IMG/VR virus record: IMGVR_UViG_3300032931_000905 | Location: 25,021-89,020 of that record | From: a virus | DNA: 64,000 nt | Reading direction: 5' to 3' (one strand) | Part shown: positions 27,931 through 45,175 of the stretch, piece after piece | How positions within the stretch are numbered: position 1 is the first letter of the stretch | Layout: each line of letters opens with the position of its first letter | Program-made: the position numbers and the translations under genes | The notes under the pieces: model-generated | Seen by the model: the letters and a program-made list of their open reading frames with translations, nothing else | Database searches by the model: none | Told to the model about the DNA's origin: nothing

Positions 27931-28158
27931 TTATCCTTCCAGTGGTTCGTTGGATGCCCCGGCTTGGTAAACTTTCTCAAGTATCTTGCGGTTCCTCTCA
28001 ATTGTCTCTTCCAATCCGCAGTTACAGATACCCGGAGGCACTTCCTCGTTCGCACAGCCCTCGGCTGCCAAAGGGCAGGAGTACCAGGAGTCATCATTCC
28101 AATAATGACCCCTGGAAACTTCTTCTGCAAGTATTCGCAGGTTCATCCTTTCACACAC
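27931..28158 (-). CDS. Small Cys-rich protein, 75 aa
   Basis: Contains CPLAAEGC and CNCG, which could form a small metal site. Starts either with GTG at 28158 or ATG at 28146, both overlapping the end of rtcB. Unknown. Confidence 0.5.
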   Translation of the reverse strand: MCERMNLRILAEEVSRGHYWNDDSWYSCPLAAEGCANEEVPPGICNCGLEETIERNRKILEKVYQAGASNEPLEG

Positions 28159-35650: not shown

Positions 35651-35724
35651 TGGTCGACCCTACAGGTTACGCTCCTGTCTCACCGCAATGTCAATGCGGT
35701 ATTCTGCTAATGAACTAAGGGTCG
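35651..35724 (-). tRNA. tRNA-Val (anticodon GAC)
   Basis: Seven-base acceptor CGACCCT/AGGGTCG, anticodon loop TTGACAT, encoded CCA. D loop ATTAGCA (A18 G19) and T loop AGCGTAA (G55 C56): the altered contact type. Confidence 0.85.
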
Positions 35725-35727
35725 TTG

Positions 35728-35803
35728 TGGTCTGCCTGGAGGGATTTGAGCCCCCATCCTCCCGGTTCGAAGCCGAGTAGTCTTCCAGTTGACGTACAGG
35801 CAG
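35728..35803 (-). tRNA. tRNA-Arg (anticodon UCG)
   Basis: Acceptor CTGCCTG/CAGGCAG, anticodon loop CTTCGAA, encoded CCA. D loop has GG; T loop CTCAAAT keeps U55 C56. Canonical contacts. Confidence 0.88.
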
Positions 35804-35826
35804 TCTAGATCAAAAAATCTTTCCAT

Positions 35827-35853
35827 GCGTAGATTACACGGTCTATTCTACGC
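35827..35853 (-). terminator. Hairpin followed by T run between two tRNAs
   Basis: GCGTAGA pairs with TCTACGC; on minus it is followed within about 10 bases by ATTTTTTG. Could end transcription or act as a processing signal between tRNA-Arg genes. Confidence 0.4.
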
Positions 35854-35862
35854 AAACCTTAT

Positions 35863-35937
35863 TGGTGCCACGGGTGGGATTCTAACCCACGTTGTCCCGC
35901 TTAGGAGGCAGGTGCCTGTACACTAGGCTACCGCGGC
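35863..35937 (-). tRNA. tRNA-Arg (anticodon CCU)
   Basis: Acceptor GCCGCGG/CCGTGGC, anticodon loop CTCCTAA, encoded CCA. D loop AGTGTAC has G18 U19 and T loop TTAGAAT has U55 A56: a compensated 19-56 change from G-C to U-A. Confidence 0.87.
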
Positions 35938-35941
35938 GTTA

Positions 35942-36017
35942 TGGACTCGCTGGTGGGATTCTCACCCACAACCTTCCAGGTAGAAACTGGAAATGCAAAT
36001 AATTACACCTCAGCGAG
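35942..36017 (-). tRNA. tRNA-Arg (anticodon UCU)
   Basis: Acceptor CTCGCTG/CAGCGAG, anticodon loop TTTCTAC, encoded CCA. T loop TGAGAAT (G55 A56); D loop AATTATTT offers A18 U19. Altered contact type. Confidence 0.82.
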
Positions 36018-36022
36018 ATATT

Positions 36023-36097
36023 TGGTGCTCCCAGAGAGTATCGATCTCTCTTTTCCTGGTTGAGAACCAGGCGAACTAGCCAGTATTCGATGGGAGC
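36023..36097 (-). tRNA. tRNA-Glu (anticodon CUC)
   Basis: Acceptor GCTCCCA/TGGGAGC, anticodon loop TTCTCAA, encoded CCA. D loop with GG, T loop ATCGATA. The upstream protein gene ends inside its 5' quarter. Confidence 0.9.
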
Positions 36098-36507
36098 GTA
36101 TTATGCGTCGGCCAATAATATGGCAGGTCCGTTGGCTCGACCCAATGAAACTGCCCGTAATACTTTGGGTCTTTTCTCAATAAGTTACTTCGGTGTGCGC
36201 TATGAAATTGCTCAGAGTTGTGCCAAGGTGGATAGACAACAGGGCACTCAACGACATATAAGGGCATGTTATTGTTATACCCTCGACTTATCCATTCCTC
36301 GATGCAGGTATTCACATACAATTTCAGCGCATGTTCATACCCCTTCCACATCAACACCGCAGGATGATTTTTCCATCCTTGCTTTGCAGACGGATTCAAC
36401 AACACATTCAAAATCTGCATTCCTTCGACTCGTTGTTTTCCTAACCGACGATAATCTAAGGCTTGCACAGATTTCTTAAAAGAGGGGTAGGGCAAAAATG
36501 TTTGCAT
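36076..36507 (-). CDS. Pyrimidine dimer DNA glycosylase-like protein (MSMEG_6728 type), leaderless
   Basis: 143 residues. MQTFLPYPSFKKSVQALDYR, RLGKQRVEGMQILN, WKNHPAVLMWKGYE and EWISRGY match a widespread phage and bacterial family related to T4 endonuclease V. The ATG is about 6 bases after a perfect -10, so the mRNA should be leaderless. The last 22 bases overlap the tRNA-Glu gene. Confidence 0.72.
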   Translation of the reverse strand: MQTFLPYPSFKKSVQALDYRRLGKQRVEGMQILNVLLNPSAKQGWKNHPAVLMWKGYEHALKLYVNTCIEEWISRGYNNNMPLYVVECPVVYPPWHNSEQFHSAHRSNLLRKDPKYYGQFHWVEPTDLPYYWPTHNTLPSNTG

Positions 36508-36512
36508 GAGAG

Positions 36513-36541
36513 ATTATAGCACAGTATTCATGCCCTGTCAA
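36513..36541 (-). promoter_or_regulatory. Consensus sigma70 promoter
   Basis: TTGACA (36536-36541), 17-base spacer, TATAAT (36513-36518): both hexamers are exact consensus. Upstream TTATAATAGCAC. Located between the tmRNA and the downstream gene. Confidence 0.88.
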
Positions 36542-36555
36542 GTGCTATTATAAAT

Positions 36556-36860
36556 TGGTGGAGATGCCGGGAATTGAACCCGGGTCCAAAAGCAACGTCA
36601 AAGTCAGATTTTCATGCTAGTCAATCTTACAACGCCCGCCAAAGGGATTGACACCTTCTACGGTCTTCTTGAGCGCACAACTTGCCTCCAAGAATGACGC
36701 TTCACCACCTACAGGAGCCTATCAGTGGGTCAACGGGCCGCGATTAAGCGGCCATTGCCAGTTCGTGTTCGACAATTCGGTTTTTCCAAGTATTAACGAG
36801 GTCCTGGTCCTCGGCATGTCCGTTCTTCTCTATACGCCTCTGTCGATACCTGTCATCCCC
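36556..36860 (-). ncRNA. ssrA: tmRNA (SsrA)
   Basis: About 305 nt. The 5' GGGGATG pairs with the 3' CATCTCC, followed by ACCA. The 3' T arm CCGGG/CCCGG with loop TTCAATT is tRNA-like. Internal reading frame ends with codons for ELAMAA then TAA, the typical tag end recognised by Clp proteases, and a GCGGCC hairpin overlaps the stop. Rescues stalled ribosomes. The exact resume codon is not certain. Confidence 0.9.
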
Positions 36861-36868
36861 TTTCATTG

Positions 36869-37069
36869 TTACCATGAGTCATAGTCTGTCAAATTACACA
36901 TGATACCGGTAGCCATATTTTCGACTTCAATGACCGTACCGATACCTGTCGGAGAAACATGAAACTCAAATGCCATGGGGCGTCCACCTGAGAGTTTCTT
37001 CTGTTTGCTCTGTTTGCGAATAAAGACTTCCAGGTTCTTCACTTCTTTTGCATTCAATTGAAACTTCAT
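36869..37069 (-). CDS. Small protein, 66 aa
   Basis: MKFQLNAKEVKNLEVFIRKQ with GGAG 7 bases upstream, then PMAFEFHVSPTGIGTVIEV. Sits 8 bases before the tmRNA 5' end, so probably on the same primary transcript. Unknown. Confidence 0.55.
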   Translation of the reverse strand: MKFQLNAKEVKNLEVFIRKQSKQKKLSGGRPMAFEFHVSPTGIGTVIEVENMATGIMCNLTDYDSW

Positions 37070-37083
37070 ACTATACTCCAAAA

Positions 37084-37168
37084 TGGCGGAGAGGTGAGTA
37101 GTCGAAACCCAACCTTTCGGTCCCACCCGCTTCAAACGGGGTTCAGTGCCCTGACTGATTACCTCTCC
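37084..37168 (-). tRNA. tRNA-Ser (anticodon UGA)
   Basis: Class II with long variable arm. Acceptor GGAGAGG/CCTCTCC, anticodon loop TTTGAAG, T loop TTCGACT, D loop with GGG, encoded CCA. Confidence 0.88.
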
Positions 37169-37255
37169 TCAATATCCTAGAAGCCAGGTGGCCACGACAC
37201 CAATAGTCGCCGTAATCACAAAGGCTAAACCTAATGCTTTCCAATTGATCTGCAT
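37169..37255 (-). CDS. Tiny membrane peptide between tRNAs, 28 aa
   Basis: MQINWKALGLAFVITATIGV then VATWLLGY, with a strong GGAGG 6 bases upstream. Its TGA touches the 5' end of tRNA-Ser(UGA). Confidence 0.5.
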   Translation of the reverse strand: MQINWKALGLAFVITATIGVVATWLLGY

Positions 37256-37269
37256 AGTATACCTCCAAA

Positions 37270-37357
37270 TGGCGGAAGAGACAGGATTTGAACCTGCGTG
37301 GCTTTGACACCGCATCCCTTTCCAAGGGAGCCCGATTGGCCTCTCTGGCACTCTTCC
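37270..37357 (-). tRNA. tRNA-Ser (anticodon GGA)
   Basis: Class II. Acceptor GGAAGAG/CTCTTCC, anticodon loop TTGGAAA, T loop TTCAAAT, encoded CCA. Confidence 0.88.
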
Positions 37358-37367
37358 AAAAAACTTA

Positions 37368-37457
37368 TGGCGGAAGTGTGAGGACATGCTCCCCAGGGTA
37401 TCTAAGGCCCCAATCCGCTTTCGAGACGGTTCCGACACCTTGATCGGTTACACTTCC
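37368..37457 (-). tRNA. tRNA-Ser (anticodon CGA)
   Basis: Class II. Acceptor GGAAGTG/CACTTCC, anticodon loop CTCGAAA, encoded CCA. T loop AGCATGT (G55 C56) and D loop TCAAGGTG (A18 G19 possible): altered type. Confidence 0.82.
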
Positions 37458-37460
37458 ATA

Positions 37461-37547
37461 TGGCGGAAGAGGGAGGACTCGAACCCCACGGTGTGACCCG
37501 CAATCCGGTTAGCACCCGGTTCAGCTACCCTGCACTGGTCCTCTTCC
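37461..37547 (-). tRNA. tRNA-Ser (anticodon GCU)
   Basis: Class II. Acceptor GGAAGAG/CTCTTCC, anticodon loop GTGCTAA, T loop TTCGAGT, encoded CCA. Confidence 0.87.
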
Positions 37548-37557
37548 ATCTAAAATT

Positions 37558-37840
37558 GAGGAGCGCCCAACCATTGTCACATACACCCCATCCCTACCAT
37601 GCACCGCCTCATCCAATCAGTGTGCTGCGTAGGTGTGAAGGATTGTGTATTTCCCTTCACCCGTCAGAATCGGCGTTCGCTATGGATTAACAACGCCACG
37701 ATTCTGTAAAACATTTTACCCCAGTATCCAGATTAGACCGTCGATCAAACGGCCGCTGTTGTCCTTCGTCCGCTGTGGTAAATGCCTTAGGTTCGTATGT
37801 CGGTCTCGCCTGAGAGAAAGCCTTGCGGCCTACGCTCCTC
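37558..37840 (-). ncRNA. Large structured RNA A in the tRNA island
   Basis: Bounded by an 8-bp helix, GAGGAGCG (37558-37565) with CGCTCCTC (37833-37840). Inside: 37665-37671 with 37700-37706 and 37672-37677 with 37692-37697 form a 13-bp stem with a 2-base bulge; 37635-37640/37655-37660; 37706-37710/37715-37719; GGCCGC 37751-37756 with GCGGCC 37825-37830. A 51-codon ORF in it lacks a ribosome site. Fits an ornate non-coding RNA; class not recognised. Confidence 0.7.
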
Positions 37841-37844
37841 ATTA

Positions 37845-37921
37845 TGGTGTCCCTGGGTGGACTTGAACCACCGATTTCAGACTTCGCAGGTCTGCGTCTT
37901 TTCCATCTGGACCACAGGGAC
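37845..37921 (-). tRNA. tRNA-Arg (anticodon GCG)
   Basis: Acceptor GTCCCTG/CAGGGAC, anticodon loop CTGCGAA, T loop TTCAAGT, D loop with GG, encoded CCA. Confidence 0.88.
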
Positions 37922-37935
37922 ATATTTCTGGCACA

Positions 37936-38010
37936 TGGTGAACGGTGCTGGTACTGCCCCAGCTTAGTCTTCCTTGTAAGGGAAGTGCATATCTTTCCTG
38001 CCCACCGTCC
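37936..38010 (-). tRNA. tRNA-Val (anticodon UAC)
   Basis: Acceptor GGACGGT/ACCGTTC (one wobble), anticodon loop CTTACAA, encoded CCA. T loop GGCAGTA (G55 C56); D loop GGAAAGATA with A18 G19. Altered type. Confidence 0.8.
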
Positions 38011-38018
38011 GTAACGTA

Positions 38019-38093
38019 TGGAGCCCTCAACCGGACTTGCGCCGGTCTATCCACCTTACCAAGGTGGCGAATCGCTATCTATTCTTTGAGGGC
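38019..38093 (-). tRNA. tRNA-Thr (anticodon GGU)
   Basis: Acceptor GCCCTCA/TGAGGGC, anticodon loop TTGGTAA, encoded CCA. D loop AGATAGCG, T loop CGCAAGT: altered type. Confidence 0.86.
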
Positions 38094-38115
38094 ATATTTA
38101 TTCGTATGGGAGCAT

Positions 38116-38192
38116 TGGTGCCGAAGGAGGGATTCGAACCCTCACTGTGCTGCTTTTGAGACAGCCGCCTCCTGCCGTTGGGCTACTTCGGC
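38116..38192 (-). tRNA. tRNA-Leu (anticodon CAA), class I body
   Basis: Acceptor GCCGAAG/CTTCGGC, anticodon loop CTCAAAA, encoded CCA. T loop TTCGAAT, D loop with GG. The variable region is only about 5 nt, whereas bacterial Leu tRNAs have a long arm. Confidence 0.82.
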
Positions 38193-38197
38193 ATAAT

Positions 38198-38274
38198 TGG
38201 TGCTGGCGAGAGGAATCGAACCTCCACTTGTCCAGATTTTAAGTTTGGTGACTCTGCCTTTGGTCTACGCCAGC
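38198..38274 (-). tRNA. tRNA-Leu (anticodon UAA), class I body
   Basis: Acceptor GCTGGCG/CGCCAGC, anticodon loop CTTAAAA, T loop TTCGATT, D loop with GG, encoded CCA. Short variable region ACAAG as in the other two Leu tRNAs. Confidence 0.82.
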
Positions 38275-38279
38275 ATACA

Positions 38280-38354
38280 TGGAGCCCCGTACCGGATGTG
38301 CGCCGGTTTCTGCGGTGTACGAAACCGCTGAATCACTATCAATTCTTACAGGGC
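38280..38354 (-). tRNA. tRNA-Thr (anticodon CGU)
   Basis: Acceptor GCCCTGT/ACGGGGC, anticodon loop TTCGTAC, encoded CCA. D loop TGATAGTG, T loop CGCACAT: altered type. First RNA after the 38357 promoter. Confidence 0.85.
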
Positions 38355-38356
38355 AT

Positions 38357-38385
38357 AGTATAACACGACCCCCGATTATTGTCAA
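38357..38385 (-). promoter_or_regulatory. sigma70-like promoter of a tRNA operon
   Basis: TTGACA (38380-38385), 17-base spacer, TATACT (38357-38362), two bases upstream of tRNA-Thr(CGU). Nothing else clear is seen in 38386-38488. Confidence 0.85.
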
Positions 38386-38488
38386 GTACAAAAGTGTTCC
38401 TGCTCCTTCTAGCCTTCTAGGGTCCCCTCATACCAGGATTGGGGTAGCGGATCGTTGCCGCCTCGGGTCGTGATAAGTTATACCAGAA

Positions 38489-38836
38489 TTAGACTCGGGC
38501 GTCCAGCGCGGCGGTCACTTCCTGCACCCCTGCCAATGTGGCGTCCAAGGCGGCTGGTGCCACTAATCCTGCTTGACCCGCGGTCAAGGCATCAACTTGG
38601 GTCTGCAAGGTCTGCAAGGCGGCCAACTTCACGGCGTCACGGGCGGCTTCTGCCACCTGTGCGGCCTTCAAATCTGCAACGGCACTTTCTAATTCTGCAA
38701 CTGTAGCCATGTGTGTGTCTCCTCGTTGAATAAGTTGTTTCACTAACCGATATAACTCCTCGATGGAATGCTCGTCACCACCCATACAAAAATCGTGTAC
38801 CGACTTCAACCCCTCAAACGTTTCATCATGTTGCAT
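38489..38836 (-). CDS. Coiled-coil protein with possible internal start, 115 aa
   Basis: AAGGAGG precedes the first ATG (MQHDETFEGLKSVHDFC) and GAGGAG precedes an in-frame ATG that would give a 73-residue form (MATVAELESAVADLKAAQVA). The C-terminal part is Ala/Leu/Gln-rich coiled coil ending in VTAALDARV. A TATAAATA box stands 22 bases upstream, so this is a late gene, perhaps virion-associated, inside the tRNA island. Confidence 0.6.
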   Translation of the reverse strand: MQHDETFEGLKSVHDFCMGGDEHSIEELYRLVKQLIQRGDTHMATVAELESAVADLKAAQVAEAARDAVKLAALQTLQTQVDALTAGQAGLVAPAALDATLAGVQEVTAALDARV

Positions 38837-38857
38837 AACGCACCCTCCTTCTAGGAG

Positions 38858-38865
38858 TATTTATA
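38858..38865 (-). promoter_or_regulatory. T4-type late promoter box TATAAATA
   Basis: Exact consensus between tRNA-Pro(CGG) and the coiled-coil gene at 38489. Confidence 0.65.
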
Positions 38866-38870
38866 CGCAT

Positions 38871-38945
38871 TGGTCAGGCTGGTTGGACTCGCACCAACAT
38901 GGTCTCCGTTCCGAACGGAGTAGTCAACTTTTGACCCACAGCCTG
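38871..38945 (-). tRNA. tRNA-Pro (anticodon CGG)
   Basis: Acceptor CAGGCTG/CAGCCTG, anticodon loop TTCGGAA, encoded CCA. D loop AAAAGTT, T loop TGCGAGT: altered type. Confidence 0.85.
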
Positions 38946-38950
38946 AATCA

Positions 38951-39024
38951 TGGAGCGGGATGCGGGTTCTGCCCCCGCGACACCGGTTTGGAAGACCAGC
39001 ATGTTGCTGCTACACCAATCCCGC
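38951..39024 (-). tRNA. tRNA-Gly (anticodon UCC)
   Basis: Acceptor GCGGGAT/ATCCCGC, anticodon loop CTTCCAA, encoded CCA. D loop AGCAGCA, T loop GGCAGAA: altered type. The upstream gene's stop lies inside its 5' end. Confidence 0.86.
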
Positions 39025-39237
39025 ATTATTCTTTATCAATACACCGATCTTTCGTAACAGGGCACTACCGAATTCTTTGGCGATATCATTCTCCATGTCA
39101 GGAGGATTGTACTCCAAAAAATCTTCAACCAATACCTCAGACATTGTAAGGGTGACCGTAATCTGTTTACGGAATTCATCGTCGATATCCATTCTCACCG
39201 ATTCGACAATCACCAGGTCTTGGTCTTTGGGTCTCAT
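39010..39237 (-). CDS. Small protein, 75 aa, 3' end in a tRNA
   Basis: MRPKDQDLVIVESVRMDIDD with GAGG upstream; the rest is charged (NPPDMENDIAKEFGSALLRK). The last 15 bases are the 5' end of tRNA-Gly(UCC). Confidence 0.5.
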   Translation of the reverse strand: MRPKDQDLVIVESVRMDIDDEFRKQITVTLTMSEVLVEDFLEYNPPDMENDIAKEFGSALLRKIGVLIKNNAGLV

Positions 39238-39247
39238 ACTATCCTCA

Positions 39248-39322
39248 TGGAGCGGGTGGTGGGAATCGAACCCACATGATCCTTCTTGGCAGAAAGGTGA
39301 ACTACCAATGTTCCACACCCGC
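39248..39322 (-). tRNA. tRNA-Gly (anticodon GCC)
   Basis: Acceptor GCGGGTG/CACCCGC, anticodon loop CTGCCAA, T loop TTCGATT, D loop ATTGGTA, encoded CCA. Confidence 0.9.
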
Positions 39323-39326
39323 GTTA

Positions 39327-39400
39327 TGGTGCTCCCTCGGAGAATCGAACTCCGGTGTGCCGGTCTTCAGGCGGTCGCTCTACTTTTGAGCTATTGAGGC
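39327..39400 (-). tRNA. Degenerate tRNA-Phe-like gene (anticodon GAA)
   Basis: T arm (CGGAG/CTCCG, loop TTCGATT), D stem GCTC/GAGC and CCA are intact, anticodon loop CTGAAGA gives GAA. The acceptor pairs poorly (GCCTCAA against AGGGAGC, three mismatches) and the anticodon stem has two mismatches. D loop AAAAGTA is of the altered type while the T loop is canonical, so it may be a recombinant or decaying gene. Confidence 0.55.
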
Positions 39401-39404
39401 ATAA

Positions 39405-39480
39405 TGGCTCCAGGGGCAGGGATCGAACCTGCGACATCCTCATTAACAGTGAGGCGCAACTACCGCTGTGCTACCCTGGA
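39405..39480 (-). tRNA. tRNA-Asn (anticodon GUU)
   Basis: Acceptor TCCAGGG/CCCTGGA, anticodon loop CTGTTAA, T loop TTCGATC, D loop AGCGGTA, encoded CCA. Confidence 0.9.
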
Positions 39481-39496
39481 ATACATTCTATACTTA

Positions 39497-39570
39497 TGGT
39501 AGGGGTTCATGGTACCGCCCCATGGTTCACGGCTTCAGAAACCGTTGTCTTGCTATTAGACGAAACCCCT
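39497..39570 (-). tRNA. tRNA-Gln (anticodon CUG)
   Basis: Acceptor AGGGGTT/AACCCCT, anticodon loop TTCTGAA, encoded CCA. D loop AATAGCA, T loop GGCGGTA: altered type. Confidence 0.85.
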
Positions 39571-39575
39571 ATAAA

Positions 39576-39650
39576 TGGAAGCCCCCGTTGGAGTTGCACC
39601 AACCTAATCCGGGTCAAAGCCGGATGCCTAAGCTGCTCGGCCAGGAGGCA
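39576..39650 (-). tRNA. tRNA-Gln (anticodon UUG)
   Basis: Acceptor TGCCTCC/GGGGGCT with an open first pair (U1-U72), anticodon loop CTTTGAC, encoded CCA. D loop GAGCAGCTTA, T loop TGCAACT: altered type. Confidence 0.8.
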
Positions 39651-39667
39651 ATAATTTCTTTTTTCTT

Positions 39668-39742
39668 TGGTGGTCCGCCAGGGAATTGCACCCTGTTCCC
39701 CGGTTTAAGAGACCGGTGCTCATCTACTAAAGCTTGCAGACC
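39668..39742 (-). tRNA. tRNA-Lys (anticodon CUU)
   Basis: Acceptor GGTCTGC/GCGGACC, anticodon loop CTCTTAA, encoded CCA. D loop TAGTAGAT, T loop TGCAATT: altered type. Confidence 0.85.
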
Positions 39743-39750
39743 GTCTATCT

Positions 39751-39825
39751 TGGAGTACCGGATAGGAATTGCACCTACATAGAGCGGCTTTGCAGGCCGC
39801 TGCCTCGCTATTCAGCCACCGGTAC
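39751..39825 (-). tRNA. tRNA-Cys (anticodon GCA)
   Basis: Acceptor GTACCGG/CCGGTAC, anticodon loop CTGCAAA, U73, encoded CCA. T loop TGCAATT and D loop lacking GG: altered type. Confidence 0.87.
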
Positions 39826-39835
39826 AAAATTCTCG

Positions 39836-39928
39836 TTACCAGGTAAACAGAACCCATCCTACTGAGAGGGAAAAGGACCTATAGTTATCTCGGTCCACTG
39901 TGGCATCGTATAGTAAATGACCCCACAT
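39836..39928 (-). CDS. Tiny ORF between tRNAs, 30 aa
   Basis: MWGHLLYDATVDRDNYRSFS then LSVGWVLFTW. GGAGGGTATC gives a strong ribosome site. The last part resembles an amphipathic beta strand. Unknown. Confidence 0.4.
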   Translation of the reverse strand: MWGHLLYDATVDRDNYRSFSLSVGWVLFTW

Positions 39929-39942
39929 GATACCCTCCATTA

Positions 39943-40018
39943 TGGCGCGCCGGACGGGAATCGAACCCGCTTGGTTCTCCTCGACAGGGAGATGTCCTTA
40001 CCAAATGACTCCCAGCGC
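39943..40018 (-). tRNA. tRNA-Asp (anticodon GUC)
   Basis: Acceptor GCGCTGG/CCGGCGC, anticodon loop CTGTCGA, T loop TTCGATT, D loop with GG, encoded CCA. Confidence 0.88.
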
Positions 40019-40020
40019 AT

Positions 40021-40155
40021 TTATTCTTTATCTCTTGCTTCCTTTTCCATGCGCTTGATCTTGTCCAGGTCCTTTGCGGTCCAACAGGGAGCCGCCCCAA
40101 CCTTATGTGGTTTGCACATCGGACAACTTCTCTTCTTGGACTTGTAAACTTTCAT
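40021..40155 (-). CDS. Conserved small basic phage protein, 44 aa
   Basis: MKVYKSKKRSCPMCKPHKVG is a recurrent small phage protein with one CPMC knuckle. AGGAG lies 7 bases upstream. Role unknown. Confidence 0.6.
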   Translation of the reverse strand: MKVYKSKKRSCPMCKPHKVGAAPCWTAKDLDKIKRMEKEARDKE

Positions 40156-40174
40156 CAAGTCTCCTGTCAACTTA

Positions 40175-40258
40175 TGGTGGAGGTAGTAGGAATCGAACCT
40201 ACTGGGTATTAGCAAGGCTTTTACAGAGCCCCCTCGCGCCGTACGAGACTATACCTCC
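40175..40258 (-). tRNA. tRNA-Tyr (anticodon GUA)
   Basis: Class II. Acceptor GGAGGTA/TACCTCC, anticodon loop CTGTAAA, T loop TTCGATT, D loop with GG, encoded CCA. Confidence 0.88.
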
Positions 40259-40265
40259 GTTCACT

Positions 40266-40456
40266 GGTCGGCAGGCGCCTTTCCGTCTTGCATCAGAAGA
40301 ACAATGCCGCTCGGCGAAACGCCGCGGAACTGATCTTTCCTAAGCCGTCATGGTGGCTATCCTGCCTCAATCGAAAACTTTGGGCACGTAAGCACTTCGT
40401 AGTGGTACGCATCAAGCAACCCGCCGACCTCTATCTTTGGGGCGCTTGACTGCCCC
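40266..40456 (-). ncRNA. Large structured RNA B in the tRNA island
   Basis: A 10-bp helix closes 40266-40275 with 40420-40429. Inside: 40387-40390/40406-40409 stacked on 40393-40396/40401-40404; 40292-40296/40330-40334 enclosing 40307-40310/40324-40327 and 40313-40316/40320-40323; 40343-40346/40355-40358. A further hairpin 40439-40443/40452-40456 lies on the 5' side. No ORF with a ribosome site. Directly follows tRNA-Glu(UUC) in transcription order. Confidence 0.65.
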
Positions 40457-40460
40457 GCCG

Positions 40461-40535
40461 TGGTGCCCCCACTGGGTATCGATCCCAGTTTTTCTGCTTG
40501 AAAGGCAGATGAACTAGCCAGTATTCGATGGGGGC
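40461..40535 (-). tRNA. tRNA-Glu (anticodon UUC)
   Basis: Acceptor GCCCCCA/TGGGGGC, anticodon loop CTTTCAA, T loop ATCGATA, D loop with GG, encoded CCA. Sandwiched between structured RNAs B and C. Confidence 0.9.
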
Positions 40536-40552
40536 GTAGTTCAAAAATGTAG

Positions 40553-40925
40553 GGTAACTTAATCAGCCTTTAGGCCTTGCTGAAGGAAACGCGCATTTCC
40601 CGTCTGGACTTACTTTGGTGGCCAGACTCTCGTTACCACTTGCTCGTCAAAAATTTGGGGTGCCTTGGTCCTCAGTTATTCCCCGGCAGGGAGGACTCCG
40701 CGAATTGCCAGGCCAGATGTTCCCAGATTCAGCACCCCTTGGGAACCCACGAAATATGCCGGGGGAAGATTTCACGTTCGTACCAACTTCTTCGGATTTT
40801 GAATAACGCACCATATCTATGCACGTTACCCCAGTCCGTTGGTGTTCCGACCCGACTCTCTGCCTCTGATCTTCTGAGAGGACTTAAAATGACCGGCGCT
40901 TCTGATCGTGGTACCGGGCTTCCAC
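40553..40925 (-). ncRNA. Large structured RNA C with two pseudoknots
   Basis: About 373 nt. Helix 40553-40558/40632-40637 closes a four-way junction with stems 40563-40567/40579-40583, 40585-40589/40596-40600 and 40602-40607/40622-40627. An H-type pseudoknot joins 40668-40673/40691-40696 with 40681-40688/40757-40764. A second joins the loop of 40719-40725/40740-40746 to 40657-40663 (7 bp with 40732-40738). Further stems: 40782-40787/40838-40843, 40804-40808/40824-40828, 40863-40867/40877-40881, 40908-40911/40922-40925. Resembles GOLLD/ROOL-type ornate RNA in setting and complexity; I cannot assign it. Confidence 0.75.
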
Positions 40926-40926
40926 T

Positions 40927-41184
40927 TTAGACCATACTTAACTGGACACTAAAACCACACCATGTTCCTGCAAGCCCAACAGCCGGATCTTTTTCTCGGA
41001 TTCGTTCCAGTTCAGTGATGGCGGCTCTCACGGCATCATTGACCTTCGTAAAATCTCCTACCCCGTTCACTATCGCGGCCCTAGACGTAAAAAACGAAAT
41101 CCCATTGATTATGACCCTGAACCGCTGAAACGTCTCAAACTCTTTCACAGCTTGTTTCCTCTGTTGTGTTTTCTCAATCATCAT
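40927..41184 (-). CDS. Small protein, 85 aa, probably leaderless
   Basis: MMIEKTQQRKQAVKEFETFQ, then RVIINGISFFTS and an Ala/Glu-rich helix. The ATG lies 7 bases after the -10 of the 41191 promoter, leaving no room for a ribosome site. Its stop is one base before structured RNA C, which must be on the same transcript. Confidence 0.55.
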   Translation of the reverse strand: MMIEKTQQRKQAVKEFETFQRFRVIINGISFFTSRAAIVNGVGDFTKVNDAVRAAITELERIREKDPAVGLAGTWCGFSVQLSMV

Positions 41185-41190
41185 ATTAAG

Positions 41191-41219
41191 AGTATAACAG
41201 AGCCCCTACACAGAGTCAA
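41191..41219 (-). promoter_or_regulatory. sigma70-like promoter of an RNA-island operon
   Basis: TTGACT (41214-41219), 17-base spacer, TATACT (41191-41196), preceded by AAATAATGC and by ACATTATATTTCTCTAATG; followed by CTTAATATGATG. Confidence 0.85.
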
Positions 41220-41272
41220 GCATTATTTGCCACATTAGAGAAATATAATGTACTGCAAAATCAACAACTTAG

Positions 41273-41361
41273 TGGTACACCGGTTGGGAATCGGACCCAA
41301 TCGAGGTGGTAATCTGCCACAAAGAGGTTATAAATCTCTCTTGCCTCCAAGGCGCCGGTGC
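41273..41361 (-). tRNA. Class II tRNA-like gene with apparent anticodon UAU
   Basis: Acceptor GCACCGG/CCGGTGT, CCA, T arm with loop TCCGATT and a long variable arm (GTGG/CCAC). The anticodon arm AGAGA-TTTATAA-CCTCT reads UAU (Ile) with a mismatched closing pair; a one-base shift reads AUA (Tyr). Long variable arms belong to Leu, Ser or Tyr tRNAs, so the identity is ambiguous. Confidence 0.6.
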
Positions 41362-41371
41362 AAAACTTTTA

Positions 41372-41440
41372 TGAGCGGAAGACTGGTAACTACGTCTTCC
41401 CTTTCCCCTCTGCGCTGTCTCACCAATTACAGAGGACTCA
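41372..41440 (-). ncRNA. Small two-hairpin RNA between tRNAs
   Basis: TGAG/CTCA (41372-41375/41437-41440) closes two stems, 41377-41383/41394-41400 (7 bp) and 41407-41412/41430-41435 (6 bp). tRNA-sized but without CCA, T arm or anticodon arm. Confidence 0.45.
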
Positions 41441-41448
41441 AAAACTTA

Positions 41449-41522
41449 TGGTGGGACGCAAGGGACTTGCACCCTCATCTTTCGGCTTAAAAGGCCGATA
41501 TTCTGCGTTGAACTAACGTCCC
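41449..41522 (-). tRNA. tRNA-Lys (anticodon UUU)
   Basis: Acceptor GGGACGT/GCGTCCC, anticodon loop CTTTTAA, encoded CCA. D loop AACGCA, T loop TGCAAGT: altered type, with possible C18-G55. Confidence 0.85.
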
Positions 41523-41529
41523 GTCTCTA

Positions 41530-41606
41530 TGGTGCGCCTGAGAGGATTTGAACCTCCACTGTACGGTTTCTAAAACCGTCGCCTCCTGCCGTTGGGCTAC
41601 AGGCGC
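41530..41606 (-). tRNA. tRNA-Leu (anticodon UAG), class I body
   Basis: Acceptor GCGCCTG/CAGGCGC, anticodon loop TTTAGAA, T loop TTCAAAT, encoded CCA. D arm GCCCAACGGCAGGAGGC is the same as in tRNA-Leu(CAA); the variable region is again short (ACAGT). Confidence 0.85.
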
Positions 41607-41613
41607 GTAATGT

Positions 41614-41687
41614 TGGTCGCGGTAGAGGAACTTGCATCCTCTCGATACGACTTATGAAATCGTTCGGCTTCGCTGGTGCCTACCGCG
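41614..41687 (-). tRNA. tRNA with anticodon CAU (Met, or Ile2)
   Basis: Acceptor CGCGGTA/TACCGCG, anticodon loop TTCATAA, encoded CCA. D loop ACCAGCGAA, T loop TGCAAGT: altered type. Whether it is Met or lysidine-modified Ile2 cannot be told. The homing endonuclease stop overlaps its 5' end. Confidence 0.82.
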
Positions 41688-42309
41688 TCTGCTTCATTTT
41701 TCTACCCTTGATCCATCCAACCGGAATAGGATCGGTCTTTTTTATTTGACCATTCTCGTATGTCTGAGGATTCGTAATCCATATTTTACCAAAATTAGGA
41801 TTTCGTTCTCCAAGATTAGCAATGGCGTTGGCTGCGCCTATTTTCTTTTTGCTTTCATCAGAATGGTGCTTGCCGGCGAATCCATTCACCATCAAACCAT
41901 TAGCCCAGGCATCCTTTGCTGTCTGCCTACATATCTCTATAGTTTGGGGTGTATGTCTTTTACCAAGGAAAGGACGGGCTGATTTCCCTCCCAGGCTATG
42001 TAAACGGCGCCAATCTTCGGGTGTTCTATTCCTATTGATGAAATCAAATCCCCCTTCACCACCAGATTTCAAATTATAACTTTGTGGTCCAAGGACGACC
42101 AATTCTTTTTCTTTGGTAAACATTTCCTCCGCTGAGGAGGCTTCAAATAAAATCTCTTTCTTGAAATTATCCAGTCCGTATTTCGTGACGGCTTGCTTCA
42201 GGACTGTACCGGAACCCATGTACCCATCATCTTTATCTAAGGTCTTATGGCATCCGATATAGGTTTTTCCATTCAGGACATTCATAATTTGGTATACAAG
42301 ATAGTGCAT
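41680..42309 (-). CDS. GIY-YIG homing endonuclease
   Basis: 209 residues from ATG 42309 with AAGGAG upstream. N-terminal HYLVYQIMNVLNGKTYIGCH holds the GIY-YIG-type motif, then LDKDDGYMGSG; the C-terminal half has NUMOD3-like repeats (KHHSDESKKKIGAANA). Its last 8 bases are the 5' end of a tRNA with anticodon CAU. A perfect late box lies 22 bases upstream, as for T4 I-TevI. Confidence 0.85.
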   Translation of the reverse strand: MHYLVYQIMNVLNGKTYIGCHKTLDKDDGYMGSGTVLKQAVTKYGLDNFKKEILFEASSAEEMFTKEKELVVLGPQSYNLKSGGEGGFDFINRNRTPEDWRRLHSLGGKSARPFLGKRHTPQTIEICRQTAKDAWANGLMVNGFAGKHHSDESKKKIGAANAIANLGERNPNFGKIWITNPQTYENGQIKKTDPIPVGWIKGRKMKQTR

Positions 42310-42330
42310 AGTTAGTCTCCTTCTATGCAC

Positions 42331-42338
42331 TATTTATA
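42331..42338 (-). promoter_or_regulatory. T4-type late promoter box TATAAATA
   Basis: Exact late consensus upstream of the GIY-YIG endonuclease gene, well spaced from its ribosome site. Confidence 0.65.
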
Positions 42339-42388
42339 ATAGTTCAATACCTAGGTATCAAACTCCCCCTGTTTCTCAAGAGGGCGGG

Positions 42389-42462
42389 TTGCGGGTACTG
42401 GAAATCGAATCCAGTGAACTCCAGGTTATGAGCCTGGTGAGATGCCACTTCTCCAACCCGCA
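42389..42462 (-). tRNA. tRNA-Met (anticodon CAU)
   Basis: Acceptor TGCGGGT/ACCCGCA, anticodon loop CTCATAA, T loop TTCGATT, D loop AGTGGCA. CCA is not fully encoded (CCC follows the discriminator). Confidence 0.87.
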
Positions 42463-42468
42463 GATTCT

Positions 42469-42690
42469 TTATAATGGCAATAACTCTTCTTCTAAAACTT
42501 CTGGCCAATAGATTCCACCAGCGTGAACGGGCTCCCTCACTTCATAGACCCAGGACTTCTCTAACACAGACCAAAAAACATCCTCCACCTTCAAGACGGT
42601 ATCTCCTATACGCCTGACCTTCTGCCCAATATTAAACTTGGAGTCATTCATCGGGATATCTGACTCGGTACGATAATCTTTCACCTTCAT
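42469..42690 (-). CDS. Small protein, 73 aa
   Basis: MKVKDYRTESDIPMNDSKFN with GGGAG upstream. FNIGQKVRRIGDTVLKVEDV looks like an SH3/KOW-like barrel. Unknown. Confidence 0.55.
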   Translation of the reverse strand: MKVKDYRTESDIPMNDSKFNIGQKVRRIGDTVLKVEDVFWSVLEKSWVYEVREPVHAGGIYWPEVLEEELLPL

Positions 42691-42708
42691 GGTCTCTCCC
42701 ATAATAAA

Positions 42709-42948
42709 TTAGACTGCTTTCTTGATCCGCACCAGGTGGTACGAATCCACCACTTCATGAGTCAAGATCGTATGCCCATCCTGTTCGACACTTCTAGGCA
42801 CATTCTTAATCGGGGCCCCATCATCGAGCAGGACCGCAAGGATCTGCCCTTCTTCCAGGTCATCCAATTGTAACTTTGTTTTCACAAAATTAAACGGACA
42901 CATCACCCCGCGCAAATCTAAAAATTCTTCCTCACCAATTTTGCTCAT
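42709..42948 (-). CDS. tusA: TusA-family protein, second copy
   Basis: 79 residues. DLRGVMCPFNFVKTKLQLDD keeps the active Cys but has Asn in place of the second Pro of Cys-Pro-x-Pro. LEEGQILAVLLDDG fits the family strand. Located inside the tRNA island, which fits a role in thiolating phage tRNAs, though this is inference. Confidence 0.8.
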   Translation of the reverse strand: MSKIGEEEFLDLRGVMCPFNFVKTKLQLDDLEEGQILAVLLDDGAPIKNVPRSVEQDGHTILTHEVVDSYHLVRIKKAV

Positions 42949-42951
42949 ATG

Positions 42952-43107
42952 TTACTTTCGATGCGCCTGGATCGCGGCACTTAACTTTCGATACACTTCT
43001 TTGGCGGCCATGGTCCATTCCTCTTGCGCCGGGTACCCGAGAAACGCGGCCTCTGAGGCTTTCTGTTCATCATAGGACAAGGATCGAACGGGTACTTTCG
43101 TTTCCAT
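42952..43107 (-). CDS. Small protein, 51 aa
   Basis: METKVPVRSLSYDEQKASEA with a strong GGAGG 4 bases before the ATG. Helical C-terminus (MAAKEVYRKLSAAIQAHRK). Unknown. Confidence 0.55.
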   Translation of the reverse strand: METKVPVRSLSYDEQKASEAAFLGYPAQEEWTMAAKEVYRKLSAAIQAHRK

Positions 43108-43134
43108 GTGACCTCCATAGATGGAAGAATCCTA

Positions 43135-43215
43135 CTGAGGCGTCCTGACCGCTAGACGAACCCGCGTCGAATGCCGCCGGTGCAGGATTCGAACCTGCGT
43201 TTCCTCATGCTCTAC
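43135..43215 (-). pseudogene. tRNA fragments
   Basis: 43173-43215 (minus) is a 3' half with T arm GCAGG-TTCGAAT-CCTGC, similar to that of the adjacent tRNA-Pro(UGG), but no matching 5' half or CCA. It is followed by a 5' half-like segment (43135-43172) with D arm GTC-TAGCGGTCAG-GAC. The two do not pair with each other. Likely remnants of recombination. Confidence 0.45.
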
Positions 43216-43218
43216 AAA

Positions 43219-43293
43219 TGGTCTAGGTGACAGGATTCGAACCTGCATGATCTCGGCCCCAAACCGAGTGCCTGGCCATTAGGCTACACCTAG
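43219..43293 (-). tRNA. tRNA-Pro (anticodon UGG)
   Basis: Acceptor CTAGGTG/CACCTAG, anticodon loop TTTGGGG, T loop TTCGAAT, D loop AATGGCC, encoded CCA. Confidence 0.9.
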
Positions 43294-43311
43294 ATACGCT
43301 CTACAAACTTA

Positions 43312-43385
43312 TGGTGGACCGCCAGGGAGTCTCACCCTGTCTTCTCCGGTGCAAGCGGAGTGTGCTCATGTAACACCTGCGGCCC
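43312..43385 (-). tRNA. tRNA-Ala (anticodon UGC)
   Basis: Acceptor GGGCCGC/GCGGTCC, anticodon loop CTTGCAC, encoded CCA. D loop TTACATGA (A18 U19) and T loop TGAGACT (G55 A56): altered, doubly compensated. Confidence 0.85.
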
Positions 43386-43396
43386 GTATGTTTATC

Positions 43397-43464
43397 GTCT
43401 AAGGGTTATATCGTGAATCAATCTGGCCATTTAGCGGCCACGGAGCAACTCACAACCCTTAGAC
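43397..43464 (-). ncRNA. Long hairpin RNA between tRNAs
   Basis: GTCTAAGGGTT (43397-43407) pairs perfectly with 43454-43464 (11 bp), continued by GTGA/TCAC (43413-43416/43450-43453) and TGGCC/GGCCA (43424-43428/43436-43440) with a 7-base loop. Rod-like; not a tRNA. Confidence 0.55.
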
Positions 43465-43470
43465 TACATG

Positions 43471-43541
43471 GGTGACGGACGGGTACTGCCCCCGCGTATC
43501 CTGTGCCACAAACAGGCGCTCTACTATTGAGCTACAGTCAC
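43471..43541 (-). tRNA. tRNA-His (anticodon GUG)
   Basis: Acceptor GTGACTG/CCGTCAC with one mismatch, C73 as expected for His, anticodon loop TTGTGGC. D loop AATAGTA, T loop GGCAGTA: altered type. CCA is not encoded. Confidence 0.82.
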
Positions 43542-43570
43542 AATCGATCCTCAGTGTCTCTCTGAGGAAA

Positions 43571-43644
43571 TGGAGCCGAAACCGGGAATCGAACCCGAAT
43601 CCACGCATTACAAGTGCGTTATGTTTCCATTACACCATTCCGGC
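43571..43644 (-). tRNA. tRNA-Thr (anticodon UGU)
   Basis: Acceptor GCCGGAA/TTTCGGC, anticodon loop CTTGTAA, T loop TTCGATT, D loop AATGGAA, encoded CCA. Its first 26 bases are also the 3' end of the HNH gene. Confidence 0.88.
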
Positions 43645-44152
43645 ATCTCTCAAAATGATAACGCTTCATTGCATTTCTACCTCCGACCTTTTGGCAGCGA
43701 GGACAGGTGACCTTTGAGTAGGTGACCCCAGTTTTACTTAAAATCATTTTCCTAACCTGTGACTCAGGTATCTTTTTTCCTCTCCAAATAGCACCAGCAG
43801 CATCCTTTTGTTTTTGAGAATTTTTCATGCCAAGCCGTGCTTGGTTTCCTTTCATGAATTCAACTCTGGCGGCATTCTGTTCTGCGGTACGCTTGACTCC
43901 CAGGGCTCTCTTCTTTCCTGTATTAGCAAACGATGCTGCCAATCTATGTGCTTCCTCTTTTCCTATCTGCTTTGAAATACTCAATGCCGCAATGTTGTCG
44001 TACTGACTCCCATTCAATTCTACGAGTAACCGGTGAACCTGAGCATGTTGTTCTGTTGTCAGGTTCACCAAATTCTCTTGAGCGTTCAAACCTCTGACAT
44101 TTCCAAACCGACTCTTCCACTCATGTCGGGGTATTACATGATGCCACGGCAT
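43619..44152 (-). CDS. HNH homing endonuclease overlapping tRNA-Thr
   Basis: 177 residues, ATG with AGGTGG upstream. HHVIPRHEWKSRFGNVRG and NLVNLTTEQHAQVHR form the HNH core; a C-terminal Cys/His motif (CPRCQKVGG, YHFERC) resembles a zinc finger. The last eight codons lie in tRNA-Thr(UGU). Clearly related to the genes at 34080 and 58279. Confidence 0.85.
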   Translation of the reverse strand: MPWHHVIPRHEWKSRFGNVRGLNAQENLVNLTTEQHAQVHRLLVELNGSQYDNIAALSISKQIGKEEAHRLAASFANTGKKRALGVKRTAEQNAARVEFMKGNQARLGMKNSQKQKDAAGAIWRGKKIPESQVRKMILSKTGVTYSKVTCPRCQKVGGRNAMKRYHFERCRNGVMET

Positions 44153-44161
44153 ACGATCCAC

Positions 44162-44689
44162 CTATTCAAGAGAAGTATGCCAATAAAGGTATGAAACCCA
44201 GTTCTCCGGGGTCTTACGGATACCCACGGTCACGGTCAACACCTGGCTCCATACGGGTTGCTTCGGTGTCTTGAGCAAACGCATTCCTGCTTGCCCTGGT
44301 GTGCGCCCCGCCTTACGAGAATTGCACGGTACGCAAGCCGTGATAATGTTTTCCCAGGACTTCTTGCCACCCAAGGCCACTGGGTTCACATGGTCGAAAG
44401 TCAGTTCTTCCGTGGGGAACTTCACACCACAGTATCCGCACTTGCAACCGTCACGGGCAAAAATGTTCGCCCTGGTAAACTTGACTGGGATCTTGCGCTT
44501 GAGTCTGACCATGGTCAACATTCGCAAGACCGAAGGGATCTTCATGGAAAACGAAATCGAATGGATCTCTTCATCGTGTTCCTCAATGACTTCCGCCTTC
44601 CCCTGGCACCAGAGGGTCACGGCTCGTTGCCACGACACAATCTGCAAGGGCTCGTAACTGTGATTCAGCACTAATGTAAAGGCGCTCAT
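44162..44689 (-). CDS. HNH endonuclease, bacterial type
   Basis: 175 residues from ATG 44689 with AAGGAAG upstream. NHSYEPLQIVSWQRAVTLW, FARDGCKCGYCGVKF, LTFDHVNPVALGG, WENIITACVPCNSRK: HNH with paired zinc CxxC motifs. This type is common in bacteria and differs from the other homing nucleases here. Role may be mobile or restriction-like. Confidence 0.82.
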   Translation of the reverse strand: MSAFTLVLNHSYEPLQIVSWQRAVTLWCQGKAEVIEEHDEEIHSISFSMKIPSVLRMLTMVRLKRKIPVKFTRANIFARDGCKCGYCGVKFPTEELTFDHVNPVALGGKKSWENIITACVPCNSRKAGRTPGQAGMRLLKTPKQPVWSQVLTVTVGIRKTPENWVSYLYWHTSLE

Positions 44690-44713
44690 AATAACTTCCT
44701 TCTTGAAGGCACA

Positions 44714-44787
44714 TGGCATACCTACGAGGAATTGCACCCCGATCATTCGTTTTGGAGACGAATATGTTGCTGTTACACCACAGGTAT
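44714..44787 (-). tRNA. tRNA-Trp (anticodon CCA)
   Basis: Acceptor ATACCTG/TAGGTAT, G73, anticodon loop CTCCAAA, encoded CCA. D loop AACAGCA, T loop TGCAATT: altered type. Confidence 0.87.
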
Positions 44788-44793
44788 ATGTCT

Positions 44794-45009
44794 CTTGTGG
44801 TATGGACCGCGTTTCTTTCCGATCATTCGTTCAGACTTCTTGCAATTCCTCAAGAATGAATGGGCCAATGCTGCCAACCACCACAAGTCAATCGTTCATA
44901 ATCCGATACGGCTTGTTACCGTCGAAGCAGCACCTTATGATTGCCCTTCCGCATGTCAGTAGTTGCACTTCCCTTCATGCGTCTAGGACCCTGTCTTGGC
45001 CAGAACAGG
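44794..45009 (-). ncRNA. Structured RNA D between tRNA-Ile and tRNA-Trp
   Basis: Helices: CTTGTGGT 44794-44801 with ACCACAAG 44880-44887; inside it 44824-44828/44858-44862 and 44837-44842/44851-44856; then 44950-44955/44976-44981 (6 bp) and 44990-44994/45005-45009. About 215 nt without a convincing ORF. Confidence 0.55.
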
Positions 45010-45015
45010 AGGTAT

Positions 45016-45089
45016 TGGTACGCATTCACAGAATTGCACTGTGATCATCCGCTAATCGGGCGGAGGTACTGCTGTTGTACGAAATGCGT
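45016..45089 (-). tRNA. tRNA-Ile (anticodon GAU)
   Basis: Acceptor ACGCATT/AATGCGT, encoded CCA, anticodon loop CCGATTA with C at the usually invariant U33. D loop AACAGCA, T loop TGCAATT: altered type. Confidence 0.84.
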
Positions 45090-45097
45090 ATACTATT

Positions 45098-45175
45098 TGG
45101 TGGAGTGCCTGGGGTTCCAACCCAGCTATATCCTACATGCCATGCAGGTGACCACCGCCAGCAGTCTCGCACCCC
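45098..45175 (-). tRNA. tRNA-Ala (anticodon GGC)
   Basis: Acceptor GGGGTGC/GCACTCC, anticodon loop ATGGCAT, encoded CCA. T loop TTGGAAC has G56; the D loop TGCTGGCGGTG can offer C19. Another compensated variant. Confidence 0.82.

Follow-up and report, generated by a model that had tools for sequence, protein, structure and literature searches.

Covarying D-loop and T-loop letters at the elbow of tRNA genes in a T4-like phage array

The G18-U55 and G19-C56 contacts between the D loop and the T loop are textbook, near-invariant features of tRNA. Among the tRNAs that depart from G18/G19 and from the T-loop consensus are the staphylococcal cell-wall tRNA-Gly and metazoan mitochondrial tRNAs, in which elbow contacts are lost or weakened. 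In a normal tRNA, residue 18 is intercalated between residues 57 and 58, where it touches 55, and residue 19 forms a pair with 56 (PMC4810234). In paired T-loops, residue 5 of each loop intercalates and touches residue 2 of its partner (PMC4810234); T-boxes have T-loops with G in the second place (UGxRA, AGAGA; PMC7583486), and the intercalating residue 5 is A in both consensus sequences. Phage tRNAs escape tRNases through changes in the anticodon arm (PMC10264068, PMC12409363), as in the case of T5 tRNA-Lys and PARIS AriB (PMC12409363), and the eLife 2023 phage-tRNA paper makes no mention of the T-loop, D-loop or elbow (PMC10264068). Here we describe a tRNA array in a window of 64,000 nucleotides (bases 25021-89020 of the 89-kb virus record IMGVR_UViG_3300032931_000905) in which altered letters at T-loop positions 55 and 56 are accompanied by altered letters at D-loop positions 18 and 19, a covariation for which the literature searched contained no earlier report.

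The phage genes resemble the canonical bacterial elongator tRNA (RF00005) in having the cloverleaf, U33, R57 and, in nearly all, an encoded CCA; they differ in having A18-G55 for G18-U55, and U19-A56, A19-U56 or C19-G56 for G19-C56. Whereas the staphylococcal and mitochondrial tRNAs lose or weaken contacts, the phage tRNAs re-form them. The count of 39 tRNA genes in the original prediction is borne out, with ARAGORN giving 25 tRNAs and a transfer-messenger RNA (tmRNA), and Rfam together with our own cloverleaf scan raising the total to 39. Our scanner does not score positions 18, 19, 55 and 56 and is therefore blind to the elbow, and it may misplace some D stems. The window genes form full cloverleaves with intact stems, and most exceed the Rfam gathering cut-off in cmscan.

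At positions 55-56 the 39 genes read U55C56 in 18, G55C56 in 16, G55A56 in two, and U55A56, U55G56 and C55C56 in one each. The G55C56 class consists of Ile GAU, Trp, His, Met/Ile CAU (41617), Lys UUU, Lys CUU, Cys, Gln UUG, Gln CUG, Gly UCC, Pro CGG, Thr CGU, Thr GGU, Val UAC, Val GAC and Ser CGA. The canonical G18-U55 contact is thus absent from the 18/39 genes that carry G55, and G19-C56 is absent from Arg CCU, Arg UCU and Ala UGC, with Ala GGC having G56 and a likely but ambiguous C19 partner; the remaining 35 genes keep C56. The array and the genes that concern the elbow are as follows.

35654-45175 (-): array of 39 tRNA genes and one tmRNA, mixed with small open reading frames and homing-type endonucleases
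45101-45175 (-): tRNA-Ala(GGC), U55 G56; D loop GCUGGCGGU permits G18 C19, GG also possible; G3-U70
45019-45089 (-): tRNA-Ile(GAU), A18 G19 / G55 C56
44717-44787 (-): tRNA-Trp(CCA), A18 G19 / G55 C56
43471-43541 (-): tRNA-His(GUG), A18 G19 / G55 C56, G54-G58
43315-43385 (-): tRNA-Ala(UGC), A18 U19 / G55 A56, A8-U14, G3-U70
41617-41687 (-): tRNA with CAU anticodon, G55 C56; AG within the D loop
41452-41522 (-): tRNA-Lys(UUU), G55 C56; 6-base D loop AACGCA, no clear A18 (exception)
41276-41361 (-): long-variable-arm tRNA, probable anticodon UAU, C55 C56; D loop UUGGA retains GG
39754-39825 (-): tRNA-Cys(GCA), A18 G19 / G55 C56
39671-39742 (-): tRNA-Lys(CUU), A18 G19 / G55 C56, A8-U14
39579-39650 (-): tRNA-Gln(UUG), A18 G19 / G55 C56
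39500-39570 (-): tRNA-Gln(CUG), A18 G19 / G55 C56, G54-G58
39330-39400 (-): tRNA-Phe(GAA), D loop AAAAGUA, A18 G19 with U55 C56; sole A18-U55 case in the window, possible intermediate
38954-39024 (-): tRNA-Gly(UCC), A18 G19 / G55 C56, G54-G58
38874-38945 (-): tRNA-Pro(CGG), A18 G19 / G55 C56
38283-38354 (-): tRNA-Thr(CGU), A18 G19 / G55 C56
38022-38093 (-): tRNA-Thr(GGU), A18 G19 / G55 C56
37939-38010 (-): tRNA-Val(UAC), A18 G19 / G55 C56, G54-G58
37371-37457 (-): tRNA-Ser(CGA), G55 C56, A54-U58; D loop UCAAGGUG ambiguous, AG or GG
35945-36017 (-): tRNA-Arg(UCU), A18 U19 / G55 A56
35866-35937 (-): tRNA-Arg(CCU), G18 U19 / U55 A56
35654-35724 (-): tRNA-Val(GAC), A18 G19 / G55 C56, A54-U58

In the window, A18 is present in 17/18 G55 genes as against 1/21 of the others (Ser CGA counted as A18; Fisher p = 6e-9), and, a small number of exceptional or ambiguous genes aside, base 56 is accompanied by its Watson-Crick partner at 19. 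In the G55 genes most D loops have the form xxxAGxx, and because those of seven bases (AACAGCA, AATAGTA, AGCAGCA, ATTAGCA) allow only one numbering of 18 and 19, GG is not recovered by realignment; structure-based numbering likewise fails to restore it. A UGxRA-type T loop (UGCAA, UGCGA, UGAGA) occurs in 10/18 G55 genes, and the other eight differ at 54 and 58 (GGCRG, AGCRU, CGCAA, CGCAC). These assignments uphold most of the original prediction, including A18 U19 with G55 A56 in Arg UCU and Ala UGC, and G18 U19 with U55 A56 in Arg CCU, which cmscan places as G18, U19, A56 independently. The estimate of about 20 genes without the standard contacts holds for the altered classes named, among which the C55C56 gene was not mentioned. 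The 16 N-G-C T loops said to go with A18 G19 are present and mostly have A18, except that Lys UUU, whose D loop cmscan aligns as G18 C19, has no clear A18 and Ser CGA is ambiguous. C19 is indeed available to G56 in Ala GGC, where GG can also be read, and the rule that TTC, ATC and CTC loops keep GG has one exception, the TTC loop of tRNA-Phe.

The covariation is specific to the two elbow column pairs. In a strict set limited to 7-base D loops with fixed numbering, 18-55 was GU in 64, AG in 33, GC in one and AU in one, with G55 accompanied by A18 in 33/33; 19-56 was GC in 96, UA in two and AU in one. Mutual information for 18-55 was 0.85 bits, a value reached by 0/2000 within-record permutations, and any other pair of D- and T-loop columns gave 0.28 bits or less, 19-56 giving 0.22 bits with few sequences varying there. 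When 60 sequences, stratified by elbow state, were aligned without gaps, 19-56 was a standard pair in 98.3%, compared with 51.8% when shuffled and at most 66.7% with the partner slid, and its covariation score was 1.18, compared with 0.22 shuffled and at most 0.36 slid. Homologues show the same exchanges, with 166 pairs of tRNAs of many types, their arms about 80% or more identical, differing in the 55-56 state. Examples, as D loop/T loop, are Gly UCC (89%; AAUGGUA/UUCGAUU and AAUGAUA/UUUGAUU), Arg ACG (91%; AUCGUAUA/UUAGAUU and AUCGCAUA/UUGGACU), and Ile GAU (93%; AAAGGCA/AUCGUUA and AAAAGAA/AGCGUUA).

For breadth, IMG/VR was scanned for T arms with G55, A56, G56 or U56 followed by CCA, the upstream cloverleaf being read by the elbow-blind scanner; the scan figures are for the matches listed, from contigs partly chosen for altered loops, and carry no estimate of prevalence. 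Compensated altered elbows occur in at least 275 contig stretches and with 41 anticodons; in 42/275 of these stretches, some of them short, no other tRNA was found. The expected D-loop dinucleotide accompanies G55C56 (AG, 89/91), U55C56 (GG, 216/222), C55C56 (GG, 4/4) and G55A56 (AU, 3/3), and just 9.8% of canonical tRNAs have AG at an allowed position. Over all D-loop lengths, A56 is found with U19 in 71/73, G56 with C19 in 61/64 and U56 with A19 in 101/102, the corresponding figures for 7-base loops with fixed numbering being 10/10, 11/11 and 34/35. Since GU is also frequent in canonical tRNAs (49% in relaxed counts with long D loops), the claim for U19 is founded on the loops of seven bases and on GG being absent. 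In tRNAs outside the pattern selection, 7-base loops gave GU 494, AG 39, GC 14, UU 4 and AC 1 at 18-55, with A18 in 39/39 G55 tRNAs, and GC 520, AU 17, UA 6, CG 1 and eight unmatched at 19-56. All amino acids are affected with only modest bias, and the share of altered elbows differs among contigs beyond binomial expectation (chi2 257, 102 degrees of freedom). The original prediction that an alternative tertiary contact is maintained is thus supported, the matched exchanges being found across hundreds of phage tRNAs that are unrelated and also between near homologues changed on both sides, and related phages show compensation, not random loop decay.

A search for kin by the POR gene that adjoins the array gave one array-bearing relative, L011, a 176-kb phage contig whose POR gene is 81% identical; kin by the baseplate gene were short contigs. 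L011 has the same kind of array with a different altered set: the window has altered Cys and Gln CUG genes where those of L011 are canonical, and the opposite holds for Gly GCC, Glu CUC and Thr UGU, differences that may reflect either a switch in place or gene replacement. It also has Arg CCU with G18 A19 / U55 U56 and Arg GCG with G18 C19 / U55 G56. A near-identical copy of the window tRNA-Val(GAC) lies at L423:12127-12197 (IMG/VR contig 3300032053_000597). Described phages also carry such elbows: tRNA-Ile(GAU) of T5 has G18 A19 / U55 U56, tRNA-Arg(UCU) of coliphage VR20 has G18 U19 / U55 A56, with similar sequence in 38 phage records, and tRNA-Cys(GCA) of Vibrio phage 2.275.O has A18 G19 / G55 C56. 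According to the T5 record its tRNA-Ile(GAU) turns into an amber suppressor on anticodon change, which is indirect evidence that such an elbow can work in translation. T loops are canonical in the tRNA-rich phages CcrBL9 and Pumpernickel and in the T4 tRNAs recovered by the scan.

Other tertiary positions vary as well. In phage tRNAs, 54-58 is UA in 1943, AU in 93 and GG in 50, with AA and CA also occurring; 8-14 varies too, and changes at 54-58 and 8-14 are often matched. With R57 retained in 99.9% of phage tRNAs and these positions variable, the tertiary network seems to be held in structure and freed in sequence. Several window genes (43315-43385, 39671-39742 and 38283-38354, all minus strand) have A8-U14 in place of U8-A14, and 4-thiouridine at position 8 is therefore impossible in them.

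The window belongs to the genome of a T4-like myovirus, with genes including baseplate, RtcB ligase, ribonucleotide reductase and primase. The array is adjoined at 34692-35603 (-) by a gene for a thiamine pyrophosphate (TPP) enzyme of the 2-oxoacid:ferredoxin oxidoreductase/POR beta type, a candidate auxiliary metabolic gene with relatives of 72-76% identity in other IMG/VR contigs. Judged from this one gene, which shares 84-85% identity with Nitrospira genes, Nitrospira is the most likely host. A phosphate-selective porin O/P is encoded at 14988-16286 (-), and homing-type endonuclease genes of the GIY-YIG/NUMOD3 and HNH kinds are interspersed with or adjacent to the tRNA genes at 41680-42330, 44162-44746 and 34080-34688 (-). 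Two further features are the following.

28143-29315 (-): RtcB RNA ligase (tRNA repair or splicing type)
36556-36860 (-): tmRNA; T loop of its tRNA-like part is canonical UUC

The tmRNA tag given by ARAGORN (GEASFLEASCALKK...CKID) is probably miscalled; an alternative at 36773-36744 (GTC GAA CAC GAA CTG GCA ATG GCC GCT TAA) reads VEHELAMAA, near the Nitrospira tag ANQELALAA, and the record of L011 also holds a tmRNA. The tRNA-Leu genes CAA, UAA and UAG (38119-38274, 41533-41606, minus strand) have variable arms of 5-6 bases in place of the long arm usual in bacteria. The segment 40570-40930 (-), between tRNA genes, has no convincing open reading frame or tRNA and folds partly into hairpins, and possibly holds small RNAs as in T5.

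The bacterial controls come from one phylum, Nitrospirota. All 45/45 Nitrospira tRNAs read have UUC T loops, and the window tRNA-His matches, at 79% identity in the arms, a tRNA-His of Nitrospira whose elbow is GG / UUC. In 296 Nitrospirota genomes the G55 pattern gave four matches, about chance level, none of them a cloverleaf in our own scan; the U56 pattern gave four in 198 genomes, again about chance level, and none of the three examined was a cloverleaf. A canonical control pattern was present in 59/61 Nitrospirota genomes. On these Nitrospirota comparisons we reject derivation of the altered elbows from the host.

We think it rather probable that these are working phage tRNAs whose elbows are re-paired by alternative contacts. 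Position 19-56 would remain Watson-Crick (G-C, U-A, A-U or C-G), 18-55 would combine G18 with U55 or C55, and A18 with G55, and A58, residue 18, R57 and the 19-56 pair would still stack as in normal tRNA. G55 would make the T-loop U-turn like the G of UGxRA T-loops, and A18 would intercalate like the A in the T-loop pairs of T-boxes, RNase P and the L1 stalk. A18-G55 is thus plausible as a reuse of the paired-T-loop contact, because in paired T-loops the A at residue 5 touches residue 2. In T-box stem I, RNase P and the 23S L1 stalk, whose T-loops are interdigitated, an intercalated A contacts a second-place G (PMC7583486, PMC4810234), and the A18-G55 covariation supports a putative contact of this kind in the phage tRNAs; the difference is that there two T-loops interlock, whereas in the phage tRNAs the A would come from the tRNA's own D loop, a similarity of working and not of membership.

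As to what drives the change, we give about an even chance to release from a host-wide sequence constraint together with compensation. Phage tRNAs would add to a host set that is already complete, and recognition by maintenance enzymes that read sequence (TruB, TrmA, TrmH, ThiI and others) would not be required of them, so their letters could drift while the ribosome, RNase P, EF-Tu and the synthetases demand shape; uncompensated states would therefore be quickly removed. This would explain the breadth, the lack of strong isoacceptor bias and the variation at several contacts, and the variation at 54-58 and 8-14 with R57 so widely kept fits general release at least as well as it fits evasion of enzymes. 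Several points weigh against this account. Lys UUU, with no clear A18, and tRNA-Phe, with A18 and U55, violate the rule; compensation at 8-14 is only partial in our scan, where some D stems are possibly misplaced; and the IMG/VR contigs were partly chosen. Release alone leaves unexplained the heterogeneity among contigs and the fully canonical tRNA-rich phages (CcrBL9, Pumpernickel, and T4 as far as its tRNAs were read), when in others the altered share is above half. The analysis shows the genes, their intact stems and the covariation at the two elbow column pairs, and we infer the three-dimensional geometry, aminoacylation, use in translation and the absence of pseudouridine 55 in G55 tRNAs.

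An alternative with a real but smaller chance is that positive selection alters the elbow against host proteins that read G18, G19, U55 and C56 (tRNases, tRNA-directed toxins, modification enzymes), with shape-reading partners such as the ribosome and RNase P still accepting the altered tRNAs. Such escape would explain both the restriction to phage tRNAs, to which altered elbows were confined in the comparison made, and the differences among phages, which exceed chance; that all four Watson-Crick pairs are seen at 19-56, double transversions included, also favours it, as does the RtcB carried by the window phage. There is precedent in the phage tRNAs that avoid tRNases (PMC10264068, PMC12409363), which likewise depart from host tRNAs at otherwise conserved places; those changes lie in the anticodon arm, whereas the changes described here lie in the elbow and are compensated pairwise. 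AriB is believed to touch the D-loop along with other parts, and Cas12a3 touches the T-arm, but the contacts described for Cas12a3 are to the phosphate backbone, this analysis identified no known defence nuclease able to tell bases apart at 19, 55 or 56, and the spread over all amino acids with modest bias is unlike the isoacceptor specificity of many known tRNases. The originally predicted inability of G55 tRNAs to receive pseudouridine 55 follows from chemistry, since TruB isomerises a uridine; avoidance of this modification is rejected as the single cause because the 19-56 variants retain U55. Evasion of elbow enzymes, which the original prediction raised as a possibility, is not required as a purpose by the data, and we slightly favour release over escape, which the data do not separate.

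It is very unlikely that diversification serves to lower recombination within tandem arrays of dozens of tRNA genes, all of which would have a GGTTCRANTCC block in common if left uniform. Blocks of tRNA genes are lost in T5 deletion variants (PMC12409363), but this idea makes no prediction of pairing, the large arrays of Pumpernickel and CcrBL9 are canonical, and, as noted, some altered-elbow stretches have no other tRNA. Random loop drift in dispensable tRNAs, the matches being chance or alignment artefacts, would account for the few unmatched cases (Lys UUU, and the 2/91 G55C56 and 6/222 U55C56 loops that lack the expected dinucleotide), but the AG match in about 98% of G55C56 loops far exceeds its frequency in canonical tRNAs, fixed-numbering loops agree, and three stems are free of mismatches in 72% of altered (n=600) and 73% of canonical (n=2114) phage tRNAs; with stems equally intact and changes compensated, decay is rejected as wholly improbable. 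Lost G18/G19 contacts do mark some non-translational tRNAs, but a decoy, primer or regulatory role, as with the staphylococcal cell-wall tRNA-Gly, is scarcely credible when contacts are kept and not lost, 41 anticodons are affected, both window tRNA-Ala genes (43315-43385, 45101-45175) keep the identity element G3-U70, and T5 tRNA-Ile suppresses amber codons after anticodon change.

Altered elbows matter for tRNA-finding software; ARAGORN missed 14/39 window genes, some of which have unaltered elbows. Re-paired elbows in about half of the 39 genes and in hundreds of phage contigs suggest that cells conserve these letters beyond what the fold alone needs. We regard it as a tentative possibility that selection remodels elbows in many phage lineages so that they become unreadable to host readers of G18, G19, U55 and C56, with the pair geometry kept for the ribosome and RNase P; if so, recognition by maintenance and defence enzymes, rather than folding, would be what the near-universal elbow letters in cellular tRNAs reflect. 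The hundreds of natural double exchanges, those of E. coli phages included (T5 tRNA-Ile, VR20 tRNA-Arg), separate the needs of the fold (Watson-Crick 19-56, matched 18-55, R57) from letters that cells conserve for other reasons, and they open to direct test the question of whether translation needs pseudouridine 55 and the elbow letters or whether these serve recognition only.

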